A stretch of DNA of 64,000 nucleotides from Actinomycetes bacterium (GCA_029782025.1 JAKOVR010000143.1:1-64000), one strand, 5' to 3'; counted from the stretch's first letter, positions 26,802-36,190 are shown. Numbers and translations: made by a program. The notes: generated by a model not told the origin, from the sequence alone.

Positions 26802-27722
26802 GTGGACGTCGTCACCCCCAGCTACCGGGCCGCCTCCCGCCTCGCCCGCACGCTGCCCCGGGTGGGGGCCGATTCGCTCAGCGACAACCTCAGCAAGCTG
26901 GCCGTGCGGGGCTCGGCCGAGCGGCGGATGCTGGTGGAGCGCAACCTCCGGCGCGTGCTCGGCCCGGACCTGCCCGCCGACGAGCTCGACCGGCTGGTCC
27001 TGGCGTCGTTCCAGGCCTACGGCCGCTACTGGGTCGACTCGTTCCGGTTGCCGGGCATGAGCGTGCCCGAGATCGACTGGGGCATCGACTACGAGGGCTA
27101 CGAGCACATCGCCCGGGCCCGCGCCCGGGGGTTCGGGCCGCTGATCGTGCTGCCCCACCTCGGCGGCTGGGAGTGGGCCGGGTTCTGGATCACCCGGGTG
27201 GAGCGGATCCCGCTCACCGCCGTGGTCGAGCCGGTGGAGCCGCCGGCCCTCTTCGACTTCTTCGCCGACTTCCGGCGCACGCTCGGCATGCACGTGGTGC
27301 CCCTCGGCCCCGAGGCCGGCACCGCCGTGCTGCGGGCCATCAAGGAGCGCCACGTGATCTGCCTCCTGTCCGACCGTGACATCGAGGGCAACGGGGTGGA
27401 GGTCGAGTTCTTTGGCGAGGTCACCAAGCTCCCCGCCGGCCCGGCCACCCTGGCTCTGCGCACCGGCGCCCCGATCATCCCGATGGCCACCTACTTCAAG
27501 CCCGAGGGCGGGATCTGGTGCACGGTGCGCCCGCCGCTGCCCGTCGAGCGCCGGGCCAAGCGGCTGCGCGAGGACGTCGTGCGCATCACCCAGTCGATCG
27601 CCCACGCCCTCGAGGACCTGATCCGGGTGGCGCCGGAGCAGTGGCACATCCAGCAGCCGAACTGGCCCTCCGACTACGAGGCCCTCGAGGCGATGGGCAA
27701 GCCCCACCCCCGCCCGGGTTAG
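26802..27722 (+). CDS. patA: Phosphatidylinositol mannoside acyltransferase (PatA type)
   Basis: A 306-residue LpxL/HtrB-type acyltransferase that acylates the mannose of phosphatidylinositol mannosides on the inner membrane face. The catalytic LPHLGGWEWAG (H119, E124), FFADFRRTLGMHVVPLG, LLSDRDIEGNGVEVEFFGE and the C-terminal QQPNWPSD are family hallmarks. It starts with GTG 6 bases after pgsA, an operon. It ends with 4 bases of overlap with the reverse-strand aldehyde dehydrogenase gene, marking the left border of the inserted cassette. Confidence 0.88.
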   Translation: MDVVTPSYRAASRLARTLPRVGADSLSDNLSKLAVRGSAERRMLVERNLRRVLGPDLPADELDRLVLASFQAYGRYWVDSFRLPGMSVPEIDWGIDYEGYEHIARARARGFGPLIVLPHLGGWEWAGFWITRVERIPLTAVVEPVEPPALFDFFADFRRTLGMHVVPLGPEAGTAVLRAIKERHVICLLSDRDIEGNGVEVEFFGEVTKLPAGPATLALRTGAPIIPMATYFKPEGGIWCTVRPPLPVERRAKRLREDVVRITQSIAHALEDLIRVAPEQWHIQQPNWPSDYEALEAMGKPHPRPG

Positions 27723-29188
27723 CCGGCCAGCCAGATGCTCTTGGCCCGGGTGTAGGCGTCGAGGGAGTGGATGCCCATCTCCTTGCCCCACCCGCTGCCC
27801 TTGGTGCCCCCGAACGGGGCGGCGAAGTCGTAGCAGCCGTAGCGGTTGACGAACACCTGCCCGGCGTCGAGGGCCGTGGCCACCCGCCGGGCCCGGCCGA
27901 GGTCGCCCGTGTACACCCCGGCGGCGAGGCCGTAGGGCGTGTCGTTGGCCAGGGCGACGGCTTCCTCCTCGGTGCGGAACGAGGTGACGGCCAGCACCGG
28001 CCCGAAGAGCTCGTCCCGGAACAGGGCCATCGCCGGGGTGACGCCGGTGAAGATGGTGGGGCGGAGGAACAGCCCCCGGCCGTTGTCGCCGGTCGTGTCG
28101 CGCCCGCCCCCGGCCACGAGGGTGGCGCCTTCGTCGTGGGCGGCGGCGATGCCGGCCAGCAACCGGTCGAGCTGGGCCTCGTTGCACTGCGGGCCCTGGG
28201 TGGCGGCGGGATCGAAGGGGTCGCCGCAGACGACGGCGTCGGCCTTGGCCACCAGCGCGGCGACGAACTCGTCGTGCACCGACTCGTGGAGCAGGAACCG
28301 GGTGGGCTCCGAGCACTTCTCGCCCTTCTGGGAGAACATGAGGTGGAACGAGCGCTCGATGCAGGCCTCGAGGTCGGGCACGTCGCCGAAGACGATGTTC
28401 GGGGACTTGCCCCCCAGCTCCAGGGTCGTCGCCGCGAGGTTGGTGGCGGCGACGTCGGACAGGATCCGGCGTCCCACCGCGGTGGACCCGGTGAAGCTGA
28501 CCTTGGCGACGCCGGGGTGGGTCACCAGGGCGGCGCCGGTGTCGGCGTCGCCGACCACCACCTCGAGCACGCCGTCGGGCAGCACGCCGGCCTCGGCCAC
28601 GAGCTCGGTGAGGCGCAGCAGCGAGAAGGGGGTGAACGGCGACGGCTTCACGACCACGGTGTTGCCCATGGCGAGGGCGGGGGCGATCTTCCACGCGGCG
28701 AGGAGCAGCGGGAAGTTCCACGGGACGAGCAGGGCGCACACCCCGGCCGGATCGCGCGTGACGATGTTCCAGGCGTCGCCCTCGACCGGCGAGAGCTCCC
28801 CGTAGAGCTTGTCGGTCCACCCGGCGTAGTAGTCGAACACGTCGGCGGTGTCGGGCATGTCGTCCTCGAGCGCCTCGCGGAGGAGCTTGCCGTTCTCGAG
28901 GCTCACGAGCGCGGCGAGCTCGTCGGCGTTGGCCCGCACGACCTCGCCCACGGCGCGGAGGGCGGCGGCCCGGTCGCGGCGGGACAGGCGCCGCCAGGGC
29001 GAGTCGGGGGCGAAGGCGCTGCCGGCGCGCCGCACGGCCCGGTCGACGGCGGCGGCGTCGTCGAAGGCCACCCAGGCCAGGGGAGCGCCGGTGGCCGGGT
29101 TCGTGCGGTGCCACCCGGGGGCGGCCGGGTCGACCGGGGCCTGGGGGCGGGTGGCGAGCCACCGGTCGGCGAGTGCTCGGCCGTTCAT
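27719..29188 (-). CDS. Aldehyde dehydrogenase (NAD(P)+, semialdehyde/betaine-type)
   Basis: A complete 489-residue aldehyde dehydrogenase that oxidises an aldehyde to the acid. Catalytic residues are N158 (VPWNFP), K181 (VVKPSPF), E257 (TLELGGKSPN) and nucleophile C292 (KGEKCSEPTR). It is the last gene of a four-gene reverse-strand cassette; its ATG overlaps the lyase stop by 4 bases. The setting points to a pathway-specific semialdehyde, not general detoxification, but the substrate is unknown. It stops in convergent overlap with patA. Confidence 0.92.
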   Translation of the reverse strand: MNGRALADRWLATRPQAPVDPAAPGWHRTNPATGAPLAWVAFDDAAAVDRAVRRAGSAFAPDSPWRRLSRRDRAAALRAVGEVVRANADELAALVSLENGKLLREALEDDMPDTADVFDYYAGWTDKLYGELSPVEGDAWNIVTRDPAGVCALLVPWNFPLLLAAWKIAPALAMGNTVVVKPSPFTPFSLLRLTELVAEAGVLPDGVLEVVVGDADTGAALVTHPGVAKVSFTGSTAVGRRILSDVAATNLAATTLELGGKSPNIVFGDVPDLEACIERSFHLMFSQKGEKCSEPTRFLLHESVHDEFVAALVAKADAVVCGDPFDPAATQGPQCNEAQLDRLLAGIAAAHDEGATLVAGGGRDTTGDNGRGLFLRPTIFTGVTPAMALFRDELFGPVLAVTSFRTEEEAVALANDTPYGLAAGVYTGDLGRARRVATALDAGQVFVNRYGCYDFAAPFGGTKGSGWGKEMGIHSLDAYTRAKSIWLAG

Positions 29189-30294
29189 GGGGAAGCCTCC
29201 TTGGTGGGGTGGGCCAGCGCGGCGAGGGTGGCGCAGCGCTCGGCATCGACGGTGGCCGTCGTGACCGTGGCCGACAGGGCCCGGGCGGCGGCGGCGACGG
29301 CCTGGGCCTGCCCGAGCACGGCGACGGCGCTGGCCAACCCGAACACGTCGAGGTGGAGCTCCGCCGCGGCGGCGAGGTGGGTGACGGTGGCGTGGGCGCC
29401 GAGGGCGGCGCACCCGAGCTGGATCGCCGTCTCGGCGTCGATCGGGTTGGTCTTGCTCGCGAAGAAGGTCGATCCGTCGCCGGTGGCGGGGAGCCGGAGC
29501 TCCCCGAAGCCCCCGTCCGGACCCGACAGGAGCAGGCGGAGATCGCGGCCGATGCGCACGACCCGGGTGGCGGCGGCGGCCAGCGCGGCGGCCAGGGCGA
29601 GCAGGTCGTCGTCGTGCTGCAGGGCGCCGGCCGGATCGGGATGCGGCCCGAGGTCGTGGCCGGTGCGGTGGGCGAGCTCGGGGACGACGGCGGCGCGGTA
29701 GGCCTCGGTGGCGCCGGACCCCGTGCCGACGACGGTGGCGCCCAGCACCACCGACCGGAGGGGCTCGAGCCTACCGGCGACGCCCGCGGCGGCGCGGGCC
29801 ACGGCCCGGCCCGTGCCGGTGGGCCACAGCGAGGTGGGCACGGCGAGGGCGTCCTGGAGGCAGGTGCGGGCCAGGGTGTGCGGTGCCGCCGCCTCCCACC
29901 GCTGCCCCGCCGCCTCGAGGTCGGCGGCCAGCTGGTCGAGCGCCCCGACGGTGGCCGGCACCTCGGCCAGGAGGGCGAGCCGGGCGGCGGTGTGCACGAC
30001 GTCGGCCGTGCTCTGGCTGCGGTTGAGCTCGGCCGGGGCGACGTCGGCCCGCCGGGCCAGCTCCTCGTTGACGGCGACGTTGACGGCGACGCTGCCGCCT
30101 CCCCGCAGCAGCGGCACGCCGGTCAGCCCCCGGCCGTCGCCGGCGATCACGGTGTCGGCGGCGGCGGCGATGGCCTGCGCCGAGGTCGGGGCGATGGTGC
30201 CCGCCCGGGCGTTGGCGAGCGCCGCCGCGGCCTTCACGTGGGCGAGGGCCGCGACGAGAGCGGGGTGGTCGGCCAGGTCGGTGCCGGGGATCAC
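29185..30294 (-). CDS. Fumarase/aspartase-superfamily lyase, divergent
   Basis: A 369-residue member of the class II fumarase / aspartase fold, which eliminates fumarate or a similar group from amino acids or diacids. Recognisable blocks are VNVAVNEELARRA, RSQSTADVVHTA (92-103), GATVVGTGSGA and the signature loop GSTFFASKTNP (274-284) with catalytic Ser275 and Lys281. Differences from true fumarases are marked: the THLQDA histidine is Cys145 (TCLQDA), the QSSND Asn is Ala, and the chain is about 90 residues short, apparently mostly at the C-terminal domain. A non-fumarate substrate is likely. The GTG start overlaps the oxygenase stop (GTGA). Confidence 0.75.
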   Translation of the reverse strand: MIPGTDLADHPALVAALAHVKAAAALANARAGTIAPTSAQAIAAAADTVIAGDGRGLTGVPLLRGGGSVAVNVAVNEELARRADVAPAELNRSQSTADVVHTAARLALLAEVPATVGALDQLAADLEAAGQRWEAAAPHTLARTCLQDALAVPTSLWPTGTGRAVARAAAGVAGRLEPLRSVVLGATVVGTGSGATEAYRAAVVPELAHRTGHDLGPHPDPAGALQHDDDLLALAAALAAAATRVVRIGRDLRLLLSGPDGGFGELRLPATGDGSTFFASKTNPIDAETAIQLGCAALGAHATVTHLAAAAELHLDVFGLASAVAVLGQAQAVAAAARALSATVTTATVDAERCATLAALAHPTKEASP

Positions 30295-31112
30295 CGCGCC
30301 ACCGGCTCGGTGCGGCCGTACCGGAGCTGCTTGAGCAGGTCGCTGCTCATGGTGCCCGGCGCGGTGTCGTAGCCCAGCAACCCGATGAGTCGGGTGGTGG
30401 CGCCCCCGATGGGGCTCACCCGGTGCAGCGAGTGGCGACCCTCGAAGACGAGCAGCGTGCCCGGGGTGAGGCCGAGGGTGACCACGCGGCTGCGGTCCCC
30501 GCCGAGGACGGCGGCGACCTCGTCGTAGCGCTCGTCGTCGGCCGTCCGGATCCGGGGCACCACCTCGAAGTCGCCTCCGTCGTCGGCATCACGCACGGCC
30601 AGGGACACCACGAAGTCGGTCTGGTCGAAGTGCCACTGCAGCTCGTCGCCGGCGCCCATCGACGCCAGGTTCAACCCGCCCAGTGGGTCGGCGTAGCGGT
30701 AGAGGGTCCCACGGTCGAGCACCTGCTCGATGAAGCGCAGCATCGGCTCCCACTCGTAGAGGCGGCGCAGCGGCGACGACGGGGGGAACAGGTCCCACGC
30801 CACCGCCCGGACGGCGGCGTGGCCGAGCCACCGGCGGGGGTGGCCGGGCGGCGCCTCCTGGTCGGGCAGCGCGAGGTAGGCGGTGGCCGGTCCGGCGTTG
30901 CGGTAGCCGAGCGGTTCGACCTCGATGGCGTCGGCCAGGACGGCGGCCAGGCCCTCCTCGGTGAGGAAGCCCGGGAGCTCGGCCGCGCCGAGCTCGGCCA
31001 GCCCCTCCCGGGCTTCGGCCACGACGGCGGCGAAGGCCGCGCCGTCGGGGTCGAGGAGCGGGTAGCGGCGCAGGTCGACGAGGGCCTCGAGGGGCAGGTC
31101 AGGGGTGGGCAT
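30291..31112 (-). CDS. Fe(II)/2-oxoglutarate oxygenase of the HalD/BesD-like family
   Basis: A 273-residue protein whose C-terminal half has the layout of the HalD/BesD amino-acid oxygenase family: LQWHFDQTDF, GGDFEVVPRIR, RSRVVTLGLTPGTLLVFEGRHSLHRV and an Arg for the 2-oxoglutarate carboxylate. The iron triad is H161, D163 and H230, with R241 for the cosubstrate. Because Asp163 is present, where halogenases have Gly or Ala, hydroxylation is expected, not chlorination. The N-terminal 110 residues form the usual cap. It overlaps tetR by 14 bases and the lyase by 4. A free amino acid or similar small substrate is inferred from the family. Confidence 0.78.
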   Translation of the reverse strand: MPTPDLPLEALVDLRRYPLLDPDGAAFAAVVAEAREGLAELGAAELPGFLTEEGLAAVLADAIEVEPLGYRNAGPATAYLALPDQEAPPGHPRRWLGHAAVRAVAWDLFPPSSPLRRLYEWEPMLRFIEQVLDRGTLYRYADPLGGLNLASMGAGDELQWHFDQTDFVVSLAVRDADDGGDFEVVPRIRTADDERYDEVAAVLGGDRSRVVTLGLTPGTLLVFEGRHSLHRVSPIGGATTRLIGLLGYDTAPGTMSSDLLKQLRYGRTEPVAR

Positions 31113-31722
31113 CGTGGTCTCCGGGGGGTACGAGCGCGGCGCGGGCGATCTCGCCGAGGTGGTCGAGCAGGCGCCGTTCCGCCGCGGCGACATGGCCGAT
31201 GCCGCGGCTGGCGGCCATGCCGTGCATCGTCTCCACCACGAGATCGAAGGCGCGGTGGAAGGCCGGGGCGGCGGCGGACTCGGGGAACAAGGTCTCGGCC
31301 ACGGCCCGGATCCGGGCGGCGTGGCGGGCCGCCGCCGGCGCCAGCGCGGCCCGCAGCGAGGCGTCCGTGCGGGCGGCGGCTTCGAGCTCGAGCGCCGCCG
31401 CCATCTCCCGGGAGCAGAACAGCTGCCACAGGAGCCGCAGGGCGCGGTCGAGGCGGTCGGCCGGGTCGGCGGTGGTGGCGAGGCGCCCGAAGCGTCCCAC
31501 GTAGCGGGCGATCAGCTCGTCGTGGAGGTGTTCGGCCGCGGCGACGATCAGCTCGTCCTTGGAGGCGAAGTGCTTGAAGAGGGCGCCCTGGGAGACGCCG
31601 GCCTCCTGCACCACGGCGGTGGTGGTGGTCCCGGCGTAGCCCCGGGTCACGAGGCATCGGGTCGTGGCGTCGAGCAGGGCCTGGCGGGTGCCGGCCCGGC
31701 GCTCCTCCTGCGTCCTCGGCAC
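31099..31722 (-). CDS. TetR family transcriptional regulator
   Basis: A 207-residue repressor-type regulator. The N-terminal helix-turn-helix (about residues 13-58) reads TRQALLDATTRCLVTRGYAG, then VVQEAGVSQGALFKHFASKDEL, and the C-terminal ligand domain is helical. The GTG at 31722 was chosen because TACGGT lies 6 bases upstream, giving a leaderless message; an earlier in-frame start at 31758 would lie inside the operator. It heads the oxygenase-lyase-ALDH cassette and probably represses it, and itself, through the palindromes at 31742-31765. Confidence 0.88.
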   Translation of the reverse strand: MPRTQEERRAGTRQALLDATTRCLVTRGYAGTTTTAVVQEAGVSQGALFKHFASKDELIVAAAEHLHDELIARYVGRFGRLATTADPADRLDRALRLLWQLFCSREMAAALELEAAARTDASLRAALAPAAARHAARIRAVAETLFPESAAAPAFHRAFDLVVETMHGMAASRGIGHVAAAERRLLDHLGEIARAALVPPGDHDAHP

Positions 31723-31741: not shown

Positions 31742-31765
31742 CACTTAAGAAGTGACAAGTCACTT
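31742..31765. promoter_or_regulatory. Two overlapping palindromes, candidate TetR operator
   Basis: CACTTAAGAAGTG (31742-31754) and AAGTGACAAGTCACTT (31750-31765) share the half-site AAGTG, giving three CACTT/AAGTG half-sites in 24 bases. The second palindrome has perfect 7-base arms around AA. The region is AT-rich and covers the -35 element of the tetR promoter. It lies about 37 bases upstream of the divergent pimA -10 box. Confidence 0.6.
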
Positions 31766-32906: not shown

Positions 32907-33682
32907 CGGCTCGTCCGGCGGCGCCGCCGCGTGCGACGATACCCGTCCCCATGGTCGACGACGAGGTGCTCGAGGAGGTGGCGCGCAACAGGGAGCGCAC
33001 CATCCGGGGCCGCGCCCTGCTGCTGGCGCCGCCCGGCGCGCTCGTGCTGCTCGGGCTGGTCCTCACGGTGCTCCTCGGCCCCGCGCTCCTCCTGCTCGTG
33101 CTGGCCGGCCTCGGCGGTGTCGCCTTCGGCGTCGACCGCATCCGTCACGCCGACCGGCGGGCGCTGGCCCTCCTCGGCGCCACCCCCGCCGCCGAGGAGA
33201 CCTTCCCGCGCCTGCACAACCTCGTCGACGGGCTCTGTGCCTCCACCGGCATCCCGCGGCCCGATCTCTACGTCGTGAACGACGCCGCCCCCGACGCCTG
33301 CACCGTGGCCGTCGACCCCCGGGCGCCGTCGCTGGTCGTCACCAGCGGCGCCGTCGAGTCGCTCAGCGTGGTGGAGCTCGAGGGGTTGGTGGCCCAGCAG
33401 CTCGCCCACATCCGGGTGCACGACCCCGTGGTCGGTGCGCTCGCCGTGGTGCTCCCGCCGCTGCGGTCCCAGCTCCCGGACCTGCGGGAGTGGCAGGCCG
33501 ACCGGGGGGCCATCGCCATCACCCGCTACCCGCCCGGGCTGGCCGGCGCCCTGGAGAAGGTGCTGGCCGGGCGGTCGGCCGCCGGGGTGCACCCGCCCGC
33601 CCTCGCCCACCTCTGGACCGGGCCCGCTGCGGTATCGTCCGCAGCGCTGGAGGTCCGCATCGACGCCCTCCGGGAGCTCTGA
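32903..33682 (+). CDS. M48 (HtpX-like) peptidase homologue that has lost HExxH
   Basis: A 259-residue protein built like the HtpX/M48 family. An amphipathic N-terminus and a hydrophobic hairpin (about 38-75) are followed by the protease-like domain with FPRLHNLVDGLCASTGIPRPDLYVV cut here into FPRLHNLVDGL and IPRPDLYVVND, then LVVTSGAVESLSVVELEG. Where HELAH should stand the sequence is QQLAHI (Q165, Q166, H169), so the first zinc His and the catalytic Glu are gone. The downstream REWQADRGA still keeps the third-ligand Glu and the Asp. Later membrane segments are missing. It is coupled to pimA by an ATGA overlap. A non-catalytic chaperone or scaffold role is inferred. Confidence 0.75.
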   Translation: MTARPAAPPRATIPVPMVDDEVLEEVARNRERTIRGRALLLAPPGALVLLGLVLTVLLGPALLLLVLAGLGGVAFGVDRIRHADRRALALLGATPAAEETFPRLHNLVDGLCASTGIPRPDLYVVNDAAPDACTVAVDPRAPSLVVTSGAVESLSVVELEGLVAQQLAHIRVHDPVVGALAVVLPPLRSQLPDLREWQADRGAIAITRYPPGLAGALEKVLAGRSAAGVHPPALAHLWTGPAAVSSAALEVRIDALREL

Positions 33683-33683
33683 C

Positions 33684-34955
33684 ATGCCGCCCTCCGACGA
33701 CGCCACCTGGGATGCCCGCGACTGGCAGCCACAGCATTGGGACGGCGAGCGCTGGGTCGACGCCGACGGGGCCGAGGTCGCCGCGCCCGACGACGGCGGC
33801 GACGGCGACGACTGGGAGGAGTCCTGGGAGTACGCCGATCCCGAAGCCGCCCGGCGCCGGCAGACGATCGTGGTCGCCGGCGCGGTCGCGAGCGCGCTGC
33901 TCCTCCTCGCCGCCGTCGTGGTGTTCCTGGTCACGGGCCAACCGGCGGAGCGGTCGACGGCGTCGGGCCCGGCCACCACGGCCGGCACCGCCCCCGGCAC
34001 CACGGCGCCGGCCCGGAAGGTGAGCCCGCTCACTGGGCTCGCTGCCGACGCCACCAAGCTCGGCCGCCCCGCCCTCGTGGTGAAGGTCGACAACGCCGAC
34101 GCCAAGGCCCACCCGCCGTCGGGCATCAACCAGGCCGACATCGTCTTCGAGGAGAAGGTCGAGGGTGCGACCAGCCGGTTCGCCGCGGTGTTCCAGTCGG
34201 CCGACGCCGCCCGGGTGGGGCCGGTGCGCTCGGGTCGCCTGACCGACCTGTCGGTCCTGACCATGCTCAACCAGCCGCTGTTCGCCTTCTCGGGGGCCAA
34301 CACCGTGTTCCGGCCCCAGATCGCCCAGGCGGCGATCGTCGACCTCGGGGCCGACCAGGAGTCGGCGCTCTACACCCGGGACCAGAAGCAGCAGGCGCCG
34401 TACAACCTCTACACCGACACGGCGAAGGTCTACGCCGCCCGCCCGGGCGGCAGCGCCCCCAAGCCGGTCTTCCCCTACCGGAAGTCCGACGCAGGGCCGA
34501 AGAACGGCCGTCCGGTCGACGGGGTCGAGTACCAGTGGGGCGGCGGGAAGGGCGCGGTGAGCTTCCGCTGGGACGCCACCAAGCGCGTGTGGCAGCGCAG
34601 CCAGGCCGGCGAGGTCCACAAGGACGCCGACGGCGTGCCGATCGCGCCGACCAACGTGGTCGTGCTCATGGTCGAGTACGTCGACTCGGGTGTGCGCGAC
34701 ACCGCCGGGGCCGCCGTCCCCACGGCACAGTTCGACGGCGAGGGCGACGCGTTGGTCTTCACCGACGGCCAGCTGGTGCAGGGCCGGTGGTCCAAGCCCA
34801 ACGAGGACGAGGCCCCGGTCATCACCGACGGGGAGGGCAACGCCATCGCCCTGACCCCGGGCACCACCTGGGTCAGCCTCGTGCCCAAGGGCCTGGCCAA
34901 CGTGGTCAACCGCACCGACACCCCCGGGCAGCCCAAGCCCTCGGGCGCGCGCTGA
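33684..34955 (+). CDS. DUF3048 domain protein, membrane-anchored
   Basis: A 423-residue protein. The N-terminal 60 residues are cytoplasmic and rich in Trp and Asp (WDARDWQPQHWDGERWVDAD). A transmembrane helix follows (about 62-86), then a Thr/Ala/Pro linker, then a DUF3048 (YerB-like) domain from about residue 112: SPLTGLAADATKLGRPALVVKVDN, INQADIVFEEKVEGATSRFAAVF and GPVRSGRLTDL. These domains lie outside the membrane and are of unknown function, possibly wall-associated. It starts 1 base after the M48-like gene and so belongs to the pimA operon. A lipoprotein paralogue follows. Confidence 0.82.
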   Translation: MPPSDDATWDARDWQPQHWDGERWVDADGAEVAAPDDGGDGDDWEESWEYADPEAARRRQTIVVAGAVASALLLLAAVVVFLVTGQPAERSTASGPATTAGTAPGTTAPARKVSPLTGLAADATKLGRPALVVKVDNADAKAHPPSGINQADIVFEEKVEGATSRFAAVFQSADAARVGPVRSGRLTDLSVLTMLNQPLFAFSGANTVFRPQIAQAAIVDLGADQESALYTRDQKQQAPYNLYTDTAKVYAARPGGSAPKPVFPYRKSDAGPKNGRPVDGVEYQWGGGKGAVSFRWDATKRVWQRSQAGEVHKDADGVPIAPTNVVVLMVEYVDSGVRDTAGAAVPTAQFDGEGDALVFTDGQLVQGRWSKPNEDEAPVITDGEGNAIALTPGTTWVSLVPKGLANVVNRTDTPGQPKPSGAR

Positions 34956-34992
34956 GCGGCTGAGCATCCACCACCGACGCTCACCCTCGCCG

Positions 34993-35059: not shown

Positions 35060-36190
35060 GTGCGACCGATCTCTGCCCTCCTTGCCACCGGCGCGGTGCT
35101 CGTGCCCTCGGCGTGCTCGGCGGCCACCGCCGGGGTCCGGACCGGGGACCTCGACGCCGCGGCGAGCGGCAACGGCAAGGGGGTCGTGACCGCGGCGCCC
35201 GCCGTCCCGACCACGGAGGCGCCGATCACGGCGTGGCCGCTGACCGGGCTGCCCATCGCCGATCCGGCCCAGGCCCGGCACAGCGTCGTCGCCGTCAAGA
35301 TCGACAACTCGCCGCCGGCCCGGCCCCAGACCGGCCTGACCCAGGCCGACGACTGCATCGAGGAGCGGGTCGAGGGCATCACCCGGCTGATGTGCCTGTT
35401 CCACTCGGAGGACGCCGATCCGGTCGGCCCCATCCGCTCGGCCCGCAGCAGCGACGTCGACCTGATGGGCAACCTCAGCCGACCGGTGCTCATGTGGTCG
35501 GGGGGCAACGCCGGCGTCACGGCCGAGATCGACTGGGCCGTGTCCCAGGGCTTCATCATCGAAGCCGGCCACCCGCGGAACGACTCGCTGTACCACCGGG
35601 ACAACCGGCGCCAGATGCCCCACAACCTCTACGGCAGCACGGCGCCCGTCCGGGAGCAGTTCACGCCGGGGCCCCAGCCGGCGCCCCACCCGCTCTTCGC
35701 CTACCGGGCGCCCGGGGAGGCGCTGCCGCCCTCGGCCGCCGACACCCCCGGCTTCGTCGTCGACTTCGGCCGCGGCGTGCGGGCCGAGTACGTGTGGGAC
35801 CAGGAGCGCAAGGGCTGGGACCGCTTCCAGGTCGACGAGTCCCACCCCCGGGGCCGCAGCGCCTTCATGGACAGCAACGGCCGGCAGGTGGCTCCCGACA
35901 ACGTCGTGATCCTGGTGGTGCCCTACGGCCAGAGCGACGCCGACTCCCGCTCGCCCAAGGCCGTCAGCGTGGGGGAGGGCGACGCCATCGTCCTCACCGA
36001 CGGCAAGGCCGTGGTCGGCCGGTGGAAGCGGCCCGTGTCCTTCGCCAGCTGGGAGCTGGTCGACCCCGCCGGCGCCCCGATCCGGCTCACCCCGGGGCGC
36101 ACCTGGGTCGCCCTGCCCGAAGCGGGAGGCCCGGCGCCGGTGCCGCTGGACCCGGCCACCGCCGCGTCCCTCCTCGGCGAGCGCCGCTGA
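35060..36190 (+). CDS. DUF3048 domain lipoprotein
   Basis: A 376-residue paralogue of the preceding protein with a different anchor: a short signal peptide ending LVPSAC (Cys19), so probably a lipoprotein. The DUF3048 domain runs from about residue 60 (WPLTGLPIADPAQARHSVVAVKIDN, shortened here to its start WPLTGLPIADP) through LTQADDCIEERVEGITRLM and GPIRSARSSDVDL, to RLTPGRTWVALP near the end. The GTG has GGAGGTG upstream. Tandem copies with membrane-helix and lipid anchors suggest two proteins working together at the membrane surface. Function is unknown. Confidence 0.82.
   Translation: MRPISALLATGAVLVPSACSAATAGVRTGDLDAAASGNGKGVVTAAPAVPTTEAPITAWPLTGLPIADPAQARHSVVAVKIDNSPPARPQTGLTQADDCIEERVEGITRLMCLFHSEDADPVGPIRSARSSDVDLMGNLSRPVLMWSGGNAGVTAEIDWAVSQGFIIEAGHPRNDSLYHRDNRRQMPHNLYGSTAPVREQFTPGPQPAPHPLFAYRAPGEALPPSAADTPGFVVDFGRGVRAEYVWDQERKGWDRFQVDESHPRGRSAFMDSNGRQVAPDNVVILVVPYGQSDADSRSPKAVSVGEGDAIVLTDGKAVVGRWKRPVSFASWELVDPAGAPIRLTPGRTWVALPEAGGPAPVPLDPATAASLLGERR

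Follow-up and report, generated by a model that had tools for sequence, protein, structure and literature searches.

An oxygenase and an aldehyde dehydrogenase (ALDH) acting together on a betaine are known from the carnitine oxygenase CntA and malic-semialdehyde dehydrogenase. The HalD/BesD halogenases and the lysine hydroxylase Hydrox belong to the oxygenase family PF23169, with Hydrox carrying the HxD iron-binding triad of hydroxylases. In the aspartate ammonia-lyase AspB, the amine of the substrate is contacted by His188 and Asn142, the α-carboxylate is bound by Thr187, Lys324, and Asn326, and Ser318 serves as the base (PMC11744663). In the nitrosuccinate lyase CreD the leaving-group histidine is missing, as it is in the lyase described below, and Arg341 occupies the position of AspB Leu358 (PMC13411527).

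In the window, by which we mean the whole 64 kb stretch of DNA from an uncultured actinomycete analyzed here, an oxygenase of the HalD/BesD fold, an aspartase-fold lyase, and an ALDH are encoded in one cassette; the CntA system differs in having a Rieske-type oxygenase and no lyase. Four minus-strand genes sit between patA and pimA, encoding a TetR-family regulator (31722–31099; PF00440 TetR_N, 56.5 bits), the Fe(II)/2OG oxygenase (31112–30291; PF23169 HalD), the lyase (30294–29185; PF00206 Lyase_1, 115 bits), and the ALDH (29188–27719; PF00171 Aldedh, 518 bits). Consecutive genes overlap by exactly 14, 4, and 4 bases, and the ALDH stop overlaps that of the convergent patA by 4 bases. Coordinates and Pfam matches agree with the four overlapping genes reported in the first-pass annotation, and its description of a compact cassette in the PIM locus is confirmed by the gene order and the flanking families, the cassette being bordered by genes for a CDP-alcohol phosphatidyltransferase and a lipid A/PatA-type acyltransferase at one end and for a PimA-type glycosyltransferase at the other. 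Its probable role is the degradation of a methylated, betaine-like amino acid, because relatives of its enzymes cluster in distant bacteria, often near betaine transporters or a formaldehyde-handling protein (Fae). No pathway with these enzymes was found in the open-licence literature, and the first-pass annotation likewise knew of none with exactly these three.

The TetR protein is best matched among NCBIfam models by BetI, far below its cut-off (47.5 vs 201 bits). The gap between tetR and pimA contains an inverted repeat, AAGTGAC-AA-GTCACTT (31750–31765), a candidate TetR operator with arms of 7+7 nt that extend imperfectly to 12 nt; its pattern has a single match in the 64 kb, where a match within three mismatches would not be unusual by chance. 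Expression of pimA could be affected by this candidate operator as well. A search for a sigma-70 promoter found none. Downstream of pimA lies a DUF3048 protein (35060–36190), preceded by a protein at about 33680–34960 that resembles it by eye.

Membership of the oxygenase in the HalD family is indicated by its Pfam score (40.5 bits against a cut-off of 26) and by its fold. An AlphaFold model (pLDDT 96.8) superimposes on HalB, Hydrox, HalD, and BesD with Z-scores of 22–24 (19.1 for one Hydrox entry), compared with at most 17.3 for other folds, at a structural identity of 14–18% to HalD, BesD, and Hydrox. The iron ligands H161, D163, and H230, together with R241, are invariant in 43 homologues (WHFD motif). 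A radical halogenase was rejected on this basis, given that halogenases have Gly or Ala in place of the Asp (HxG), and the invariant HxD...H triad marks the oxygenase as hydroxylase-type. We take the lysine-binding residues of BesD to be His134, Asp140, Asn219, and Thr221; in a profile alignment to 6nie these correspond to Leu, Gln, Leu, and Gly in the oxygenase. Action on a free amino acid in the manner of HalD/BesD, as the first-pass annotation had it, thus loses its sequence support, although HxD is kept.

Oxygenases of this family occur widely in the class, in 51 of 395 genomes at E 1e-40. In a sister genus of the same family (L053, 7550–8620), an oxygenase occupies the same patA–pimA gap and lacks codons 121–168, which include the HxD motif, an absence that may reflect decay or misassembly; a run of N lies exactly beside it and hides the remainder of the gap, including any lyase or ALDH. 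To place the cassette more broadly, contigs of 84,980 species were scanned with the oxygenase alignment, which returned 80 related loci (L096–L175). Most of the underlying genomes are metagenome-assembled, and gene calls in these loci are heuristic ORF picks, with argument-bearing genes checked by profile search. The oxygenase and neighbors in L162 are near-identical to those of actinobacterium IMCC26256 (L165), and the record title of L162, Bifidobacterium breve, looks wrong.

Co-occurrence of the oxygenase and lyase families in other genomes, on which the first-pass annotation had staked its proposal, was found in this neighborhood scan: the same lyase subfamily directly follows the oxygenase in 9/80 loci from several phyla, comprising Obscuribacterales (L148, L153, L160, L166), Binataceae (L133, L137, L140), and "Deltaproteobacteria" (L100, L134). 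ALDHs orthologous to that of the window adjoin or closely follow the oxygenase in seven of the 80, and Binataceae have the lyase without such an ALDH. The complete order oxygenase–lyase–ALDH, as in the window, recurs in three Obscuribacterales genomes (L148, L153, L166), and all three genes share one 8.7 kb contig of a groundwater "Deltaproteobacteria" MAG (L100/L195). An ALDH comes directly after the oxygenase in L138, L139, L150, L159, and L197, and three of these loci, in Bdellovibrionota (L138, L159, L197), continue with a methylaspartate ammonia-lyase (MAL). Such co-occurrence is far beyond chance. No TetR homologue was found near the 80 related oxygenases, so of the regulated three-enzyme cassette first proposed, the enzymes recur in unrelated genomes and the regulator is not conserved with them.

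The most frequent partner of the oxygenase is Fae, whose gene overlaps it or lies within 50 bp in 47 of the 80 loci, with one more at 3.9 kb, mainly in Acidimicrobiia-type Actinomycetota. Against Pfam PF08714 (cut-off 27), eight Fae proteins, seven of them from related loci, reach 129–165 bits; a conserved oxygenase–Fae pair was not found described in the open-licence literature. The oxygenase of the window is itself nested within the Fae-linked clade, grouping with Fae-linked L096 (support 98; 67% identity), and has Fae-type residues flanking its iron ligands (E157, Q159, V184). No Fae was found in its own genome, and in none of the 80 loci does Fae occur together with the lyase or the orthologous ALDH. 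Placing the lyase on the oxygenase tree takes five changes while the linked lyases form one clade; the association was thus made or lost several times. The simplest account of Fae alternating with ALDH is that they are two ways to handle the same aldehyde, most likely formaldehyde from oxidative N-demethylation; that the oxygenase is an N-demethylase releasing formaldehyde is something we infer from one observation, Fae adjacency.

Transporters of betaine type adjoin in four loci: BCCT (betaine/carnitine/choline) transporters lie within the operon in L197 and L139, and OpuAC/ProV-type glycine-betaine ABC transporters come immediately after the oxygenase in L154 and immediately after the ALDH in L150. 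In L052 and L061, trimethylamine-methyltransferase-like genes are found in the vicinity of more distantly related oxygenases of this family. Together these neighbors point to a methylated, betaine-like substrate, though these are wide-ranging transporter families: ectoine, choline, carnitine, and DMSP are also among the substrates of BCCT and OpuAC transporters, which weighs against a betaine specifically. Arginine deiminase/dimethylargininase-like genes were seen near oxygenase relatives in alphaproteobacterial MAGs (L142, 8994–10058; L127, 5069–5974), and no tie to the cassette was found for these or for acyl-CoA dehydrogenase or SDR neighbors of other relatives.

Fae and the betaine transporters also bear on the pathway first envisaged, in which hydroxylation of a free amino acid by a HalD/BesD-like enzyme is followed by cleavage of the product by the lyase and oxidation of the fragment by the ALDH. 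The fold and family of the oxygenase and its intact HxD triad fit such a scheme, which leaves the linkage to Fae and betaine transporters unexplained, predicts lysine-binding positions that are not conserved, and, to our knowledge, calls for a cleavage of β/γ-hydroxy amino acids that is not known aspartase-fold chemistry; we regard it as very unlikely. In place of simple hydroxylation, the Fae pairing of the closest relatives and the betaine transporters of others favor oxidative dealkylation of an N-methylated compound. The neighbors seen here, Fae or lyase and ALDH, differ from the halogenated-amino-acid biosynthesis of HalD/BesD.

The lyase of the window shares the fold of AspB and class II fumarases (model pLDDT 86.5; Z about 38, with 38.6 over 360 residues for aspartase/FumC residues 34–411), along with the SS-loop serine and the equivalents of Lys324, Asn326, and Thr187. 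Its scores against the NCBIfam models of these enzymes, 138/681 and 136/665 bits, lie far below the cut-offs. Together with the nine oxygenase-linked lyases it forms a single clade (100/100 support) that, judged by sequence, is a new subfamily. Members are recognized by the motifs GGGS, QSTAD, ARTCLQDA, and GS[ST]FFxxKxNP, by an end before domain 3, and by an adjacent oxygenase; variants are QSTSD in L153, IF for FF in L134, and changes around ARTCLQDA in a few members. In all cases where the end is known the proteins stop before the fumarase-type C-terminal domain, and the SS-loop Met-Pro of AspB and fumarase is replaced, by Phe-Phe in most. The window protein has these motifs, ends before domain 3, and adjoins the oxygenase; its loop, GSTFFASKTN, keeps Ser275, Lys281, and Asn283 of the superfamily with the proline changed.

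At AspB positions the clade keeps Ser318, Thr187, Lys324, and Asn326, whereas His188 is replaced by Cys, Asn142 by Ala, and Thr101 by Ile or Val. Retention of carboxylate-binding and catalytic residues with loss of the ammonia contacts points to a clade whose substrate is probably still a dicarboxylate and whose leaving group is probably neither ammonia nor water. Earlier assignment to the aspartase fold therefore stands for fold and catalytic residues, and not for an aspartase activity, since Cys145 and Ala97 of the window lyase replace His188 and Asn142. Identity with nitrosuccinate lyase was likewise rejected, the position of AspB Leu358 and CreD Arg341 being Leu315 in the window protein. 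One might still take the gene for a plain fumarase or aspartase of this genome, unrelated to its neighbors, in view of its superfamily and the failure to find another class II fumarase in the genome. A class I fumarase is present elsewhere in the genome, however, excluding a housekeeping fumarase role, the residues contacting ammonia and water are gone, and the link between lyase and oxygenase recurs across phyla, so this explanation is highly improbable.

Within its clade, the lyase of the window is the odd member. At 369 aa it is short, lacking about 35 N-terminal residues of its relatives; the LYGIxTxR segment with its conserved TxR motif is absent, and the upstream frame contains neither that segment nor a start codon before 30294. 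Its branch, at 4.37, is about four times as long as any other in the clade (at most 1.15), and it has changed 25 of the 94 clade-invariant residues (27%), compared with 1–13% in other members. Owing to this fast evolution, its relatives were missed by direct searching (98 relatives, 395 class and 396 phylum genomes, plasmids, and genome contigs gave nothing close) and surfaced only through the oxygenase alignment. Because of the lost N-terminus and the rapid divergence, the window lyase may have changed its function or be in decay, and the reaction of the clade may be gone from this protein. The cassette could then be a remnant in which the oxygenase and ALDH are still functional, for instance releasing and oxidizing an aldehyde, beside a decaying, functionless lyase. 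That outcome is unlikely, given that the frame is open and coupled by intact 4-base overlaps to both neighbors, that none of the catalytic residues (Ser, Lys, Asn, Thr) has been lost, and that the model folds.

The ALDH belongs to an orthologous group with the motifs KGEKCSEPTR, which varies in some members, and NRYGCYDF. Identity to the oxygenase-linked ALDHs of other phyla is 53–63% over most of the length (48–57% in one alignment) and peaks at 63% over 328 residues for L100/L195, compared with 40–44% for the nearest ALDHs in its own genome and four genomes of the class. Betaine-aldehyde dehydrogenase (BADH) is the best NCBIfam model at 446.1 bits; equivalog identity was rejected, the cut-off of 668.6 bits not being reached, and the catalytic motif is GEKC vs GQxC in BADH.

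In the Bdellovibrionota loci, MAL occupies the place of the lyase after the ALDH. MAL has an enolase fold unrelated to that of the lyase, and its subfamily here seems to stand in for the aspartase-fold enzyme. In the numbering of the C. amalonaticus enzyme, the three linked MALs (L138, 8345–9559; L159, 8361–9599; L197, 7995–9326) have altered pocket residues in common, with Gln73 changed to Ser, His194 to Gln, and Gln329 to His, and keep the catalytic Lys331. In Binataceae L137 (6910–8243), and with the same genes in L140, the oxygenase–lyase pair is followed by a MaoC (mesaconyl-CoA-hydratase-like) and an HpcH/HpaI (citramalyl-CoA-lyase-like) protein; these neighbors might hint at a mesaconate product.

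Reading substrate, step order, and activities from the genes, we tentatively favor, at somewhat less than an even chance, a cassette that is inducible and catabolizes an N-methylated amino acid of betaine type, built on an aspartate-like backbone. The oxygenase would hydroxylate an N-methyl or other heteroatom-bound carbon, and collapse of the hemiaminal would release an aldehyde, most likely formaldehyde. The ALDH would turn this aldehyde into its acid, a task for which Fae would be the sink in close relatives. Using Ser318-type base catalysis on the dicarboxylate, the lyase would then expel a methylated amine and leave fumarate (or mesaconate), a step that the unrelated MAL would take over in Bdellovibrionota. 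The oxygenase step is a likelier source of the aldehyde than the lyase step, to which the first-pass annotation had assigned it and for which we found no support.

The main rival has good chemical logic and starts from C4 of a four-carbon betaine or ether, such as the trimethylhomoserine ether head group of betaine lipids, which the oxygenase would convert to a semialdehyde. Oxidation by the ALDH would give an aspartate-betaine-like dicarboxylate, from which the lyase would expel trimethylamine, with no proton needed, to yield fumarate. Such a sequence would account for the second carboxylate required by the two unrelated lyases and would agree with an ALDH nearest to betaine-aldehyde dehydrogenases, with the suitability of the lost His and Asn of the lyase for a tertiary-amine leaving group, and with the betaine-type transporters at related loci. 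It leaves Fae beside nearly the same oxygenase unexplained, as well as the Binataceae lyases lacking an orthologous ALDH, and no such route was found in the open-licence literature; we consider it rather unlikely.

The missing Binataceae ALDH is what the favored N-dealkylation route would lead one to expect if the ALDH is only an aldehyde sink. Against that route, the ALDH is not of a known formaldehyde-specific type. Moreover, no other of the 395 class genomes has the lyase below 1e-38, and Fae-linked genomes thus seem to be without it; loci with Fae and loci with the lyase may therefore act on different substrates.

Beyond the window, the cassette could belong to an undescribed aerobic route that degrades quaternary-ammonium betaines of aspartate or homoserine type, perhaps betaine-lipid head groups, and is common to Actinomycetota, Obscuribacterales, Binataceae, and Bdellovibrionota. 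It would combine a HalD-fold dealkylase with a new aspartase-fold lyase that needs no proton donor to expel a methylated amine, and a methylaspartate lyase of unrelated fold would have been recruited for the same step; we hold this wider proposal to be possible, on the doubtful side. No description of such a route, or of betaine-lipid degradation by it, was found in the open-licence literature. If true, it would add a means of degrading betaines or N-methyl amino acids to lineages abundant in soil, groundwater, and lakes, and would give a HalD-fold family a demethylase or dealkylase role. It would also define a subfamily of lyases whose leaving-group pocket is altered, which is of interest for C–N bond-forming biocatalysis, and would tie Fae in non-methanogens to a specific source of formaldehyde in a way that can be tested.
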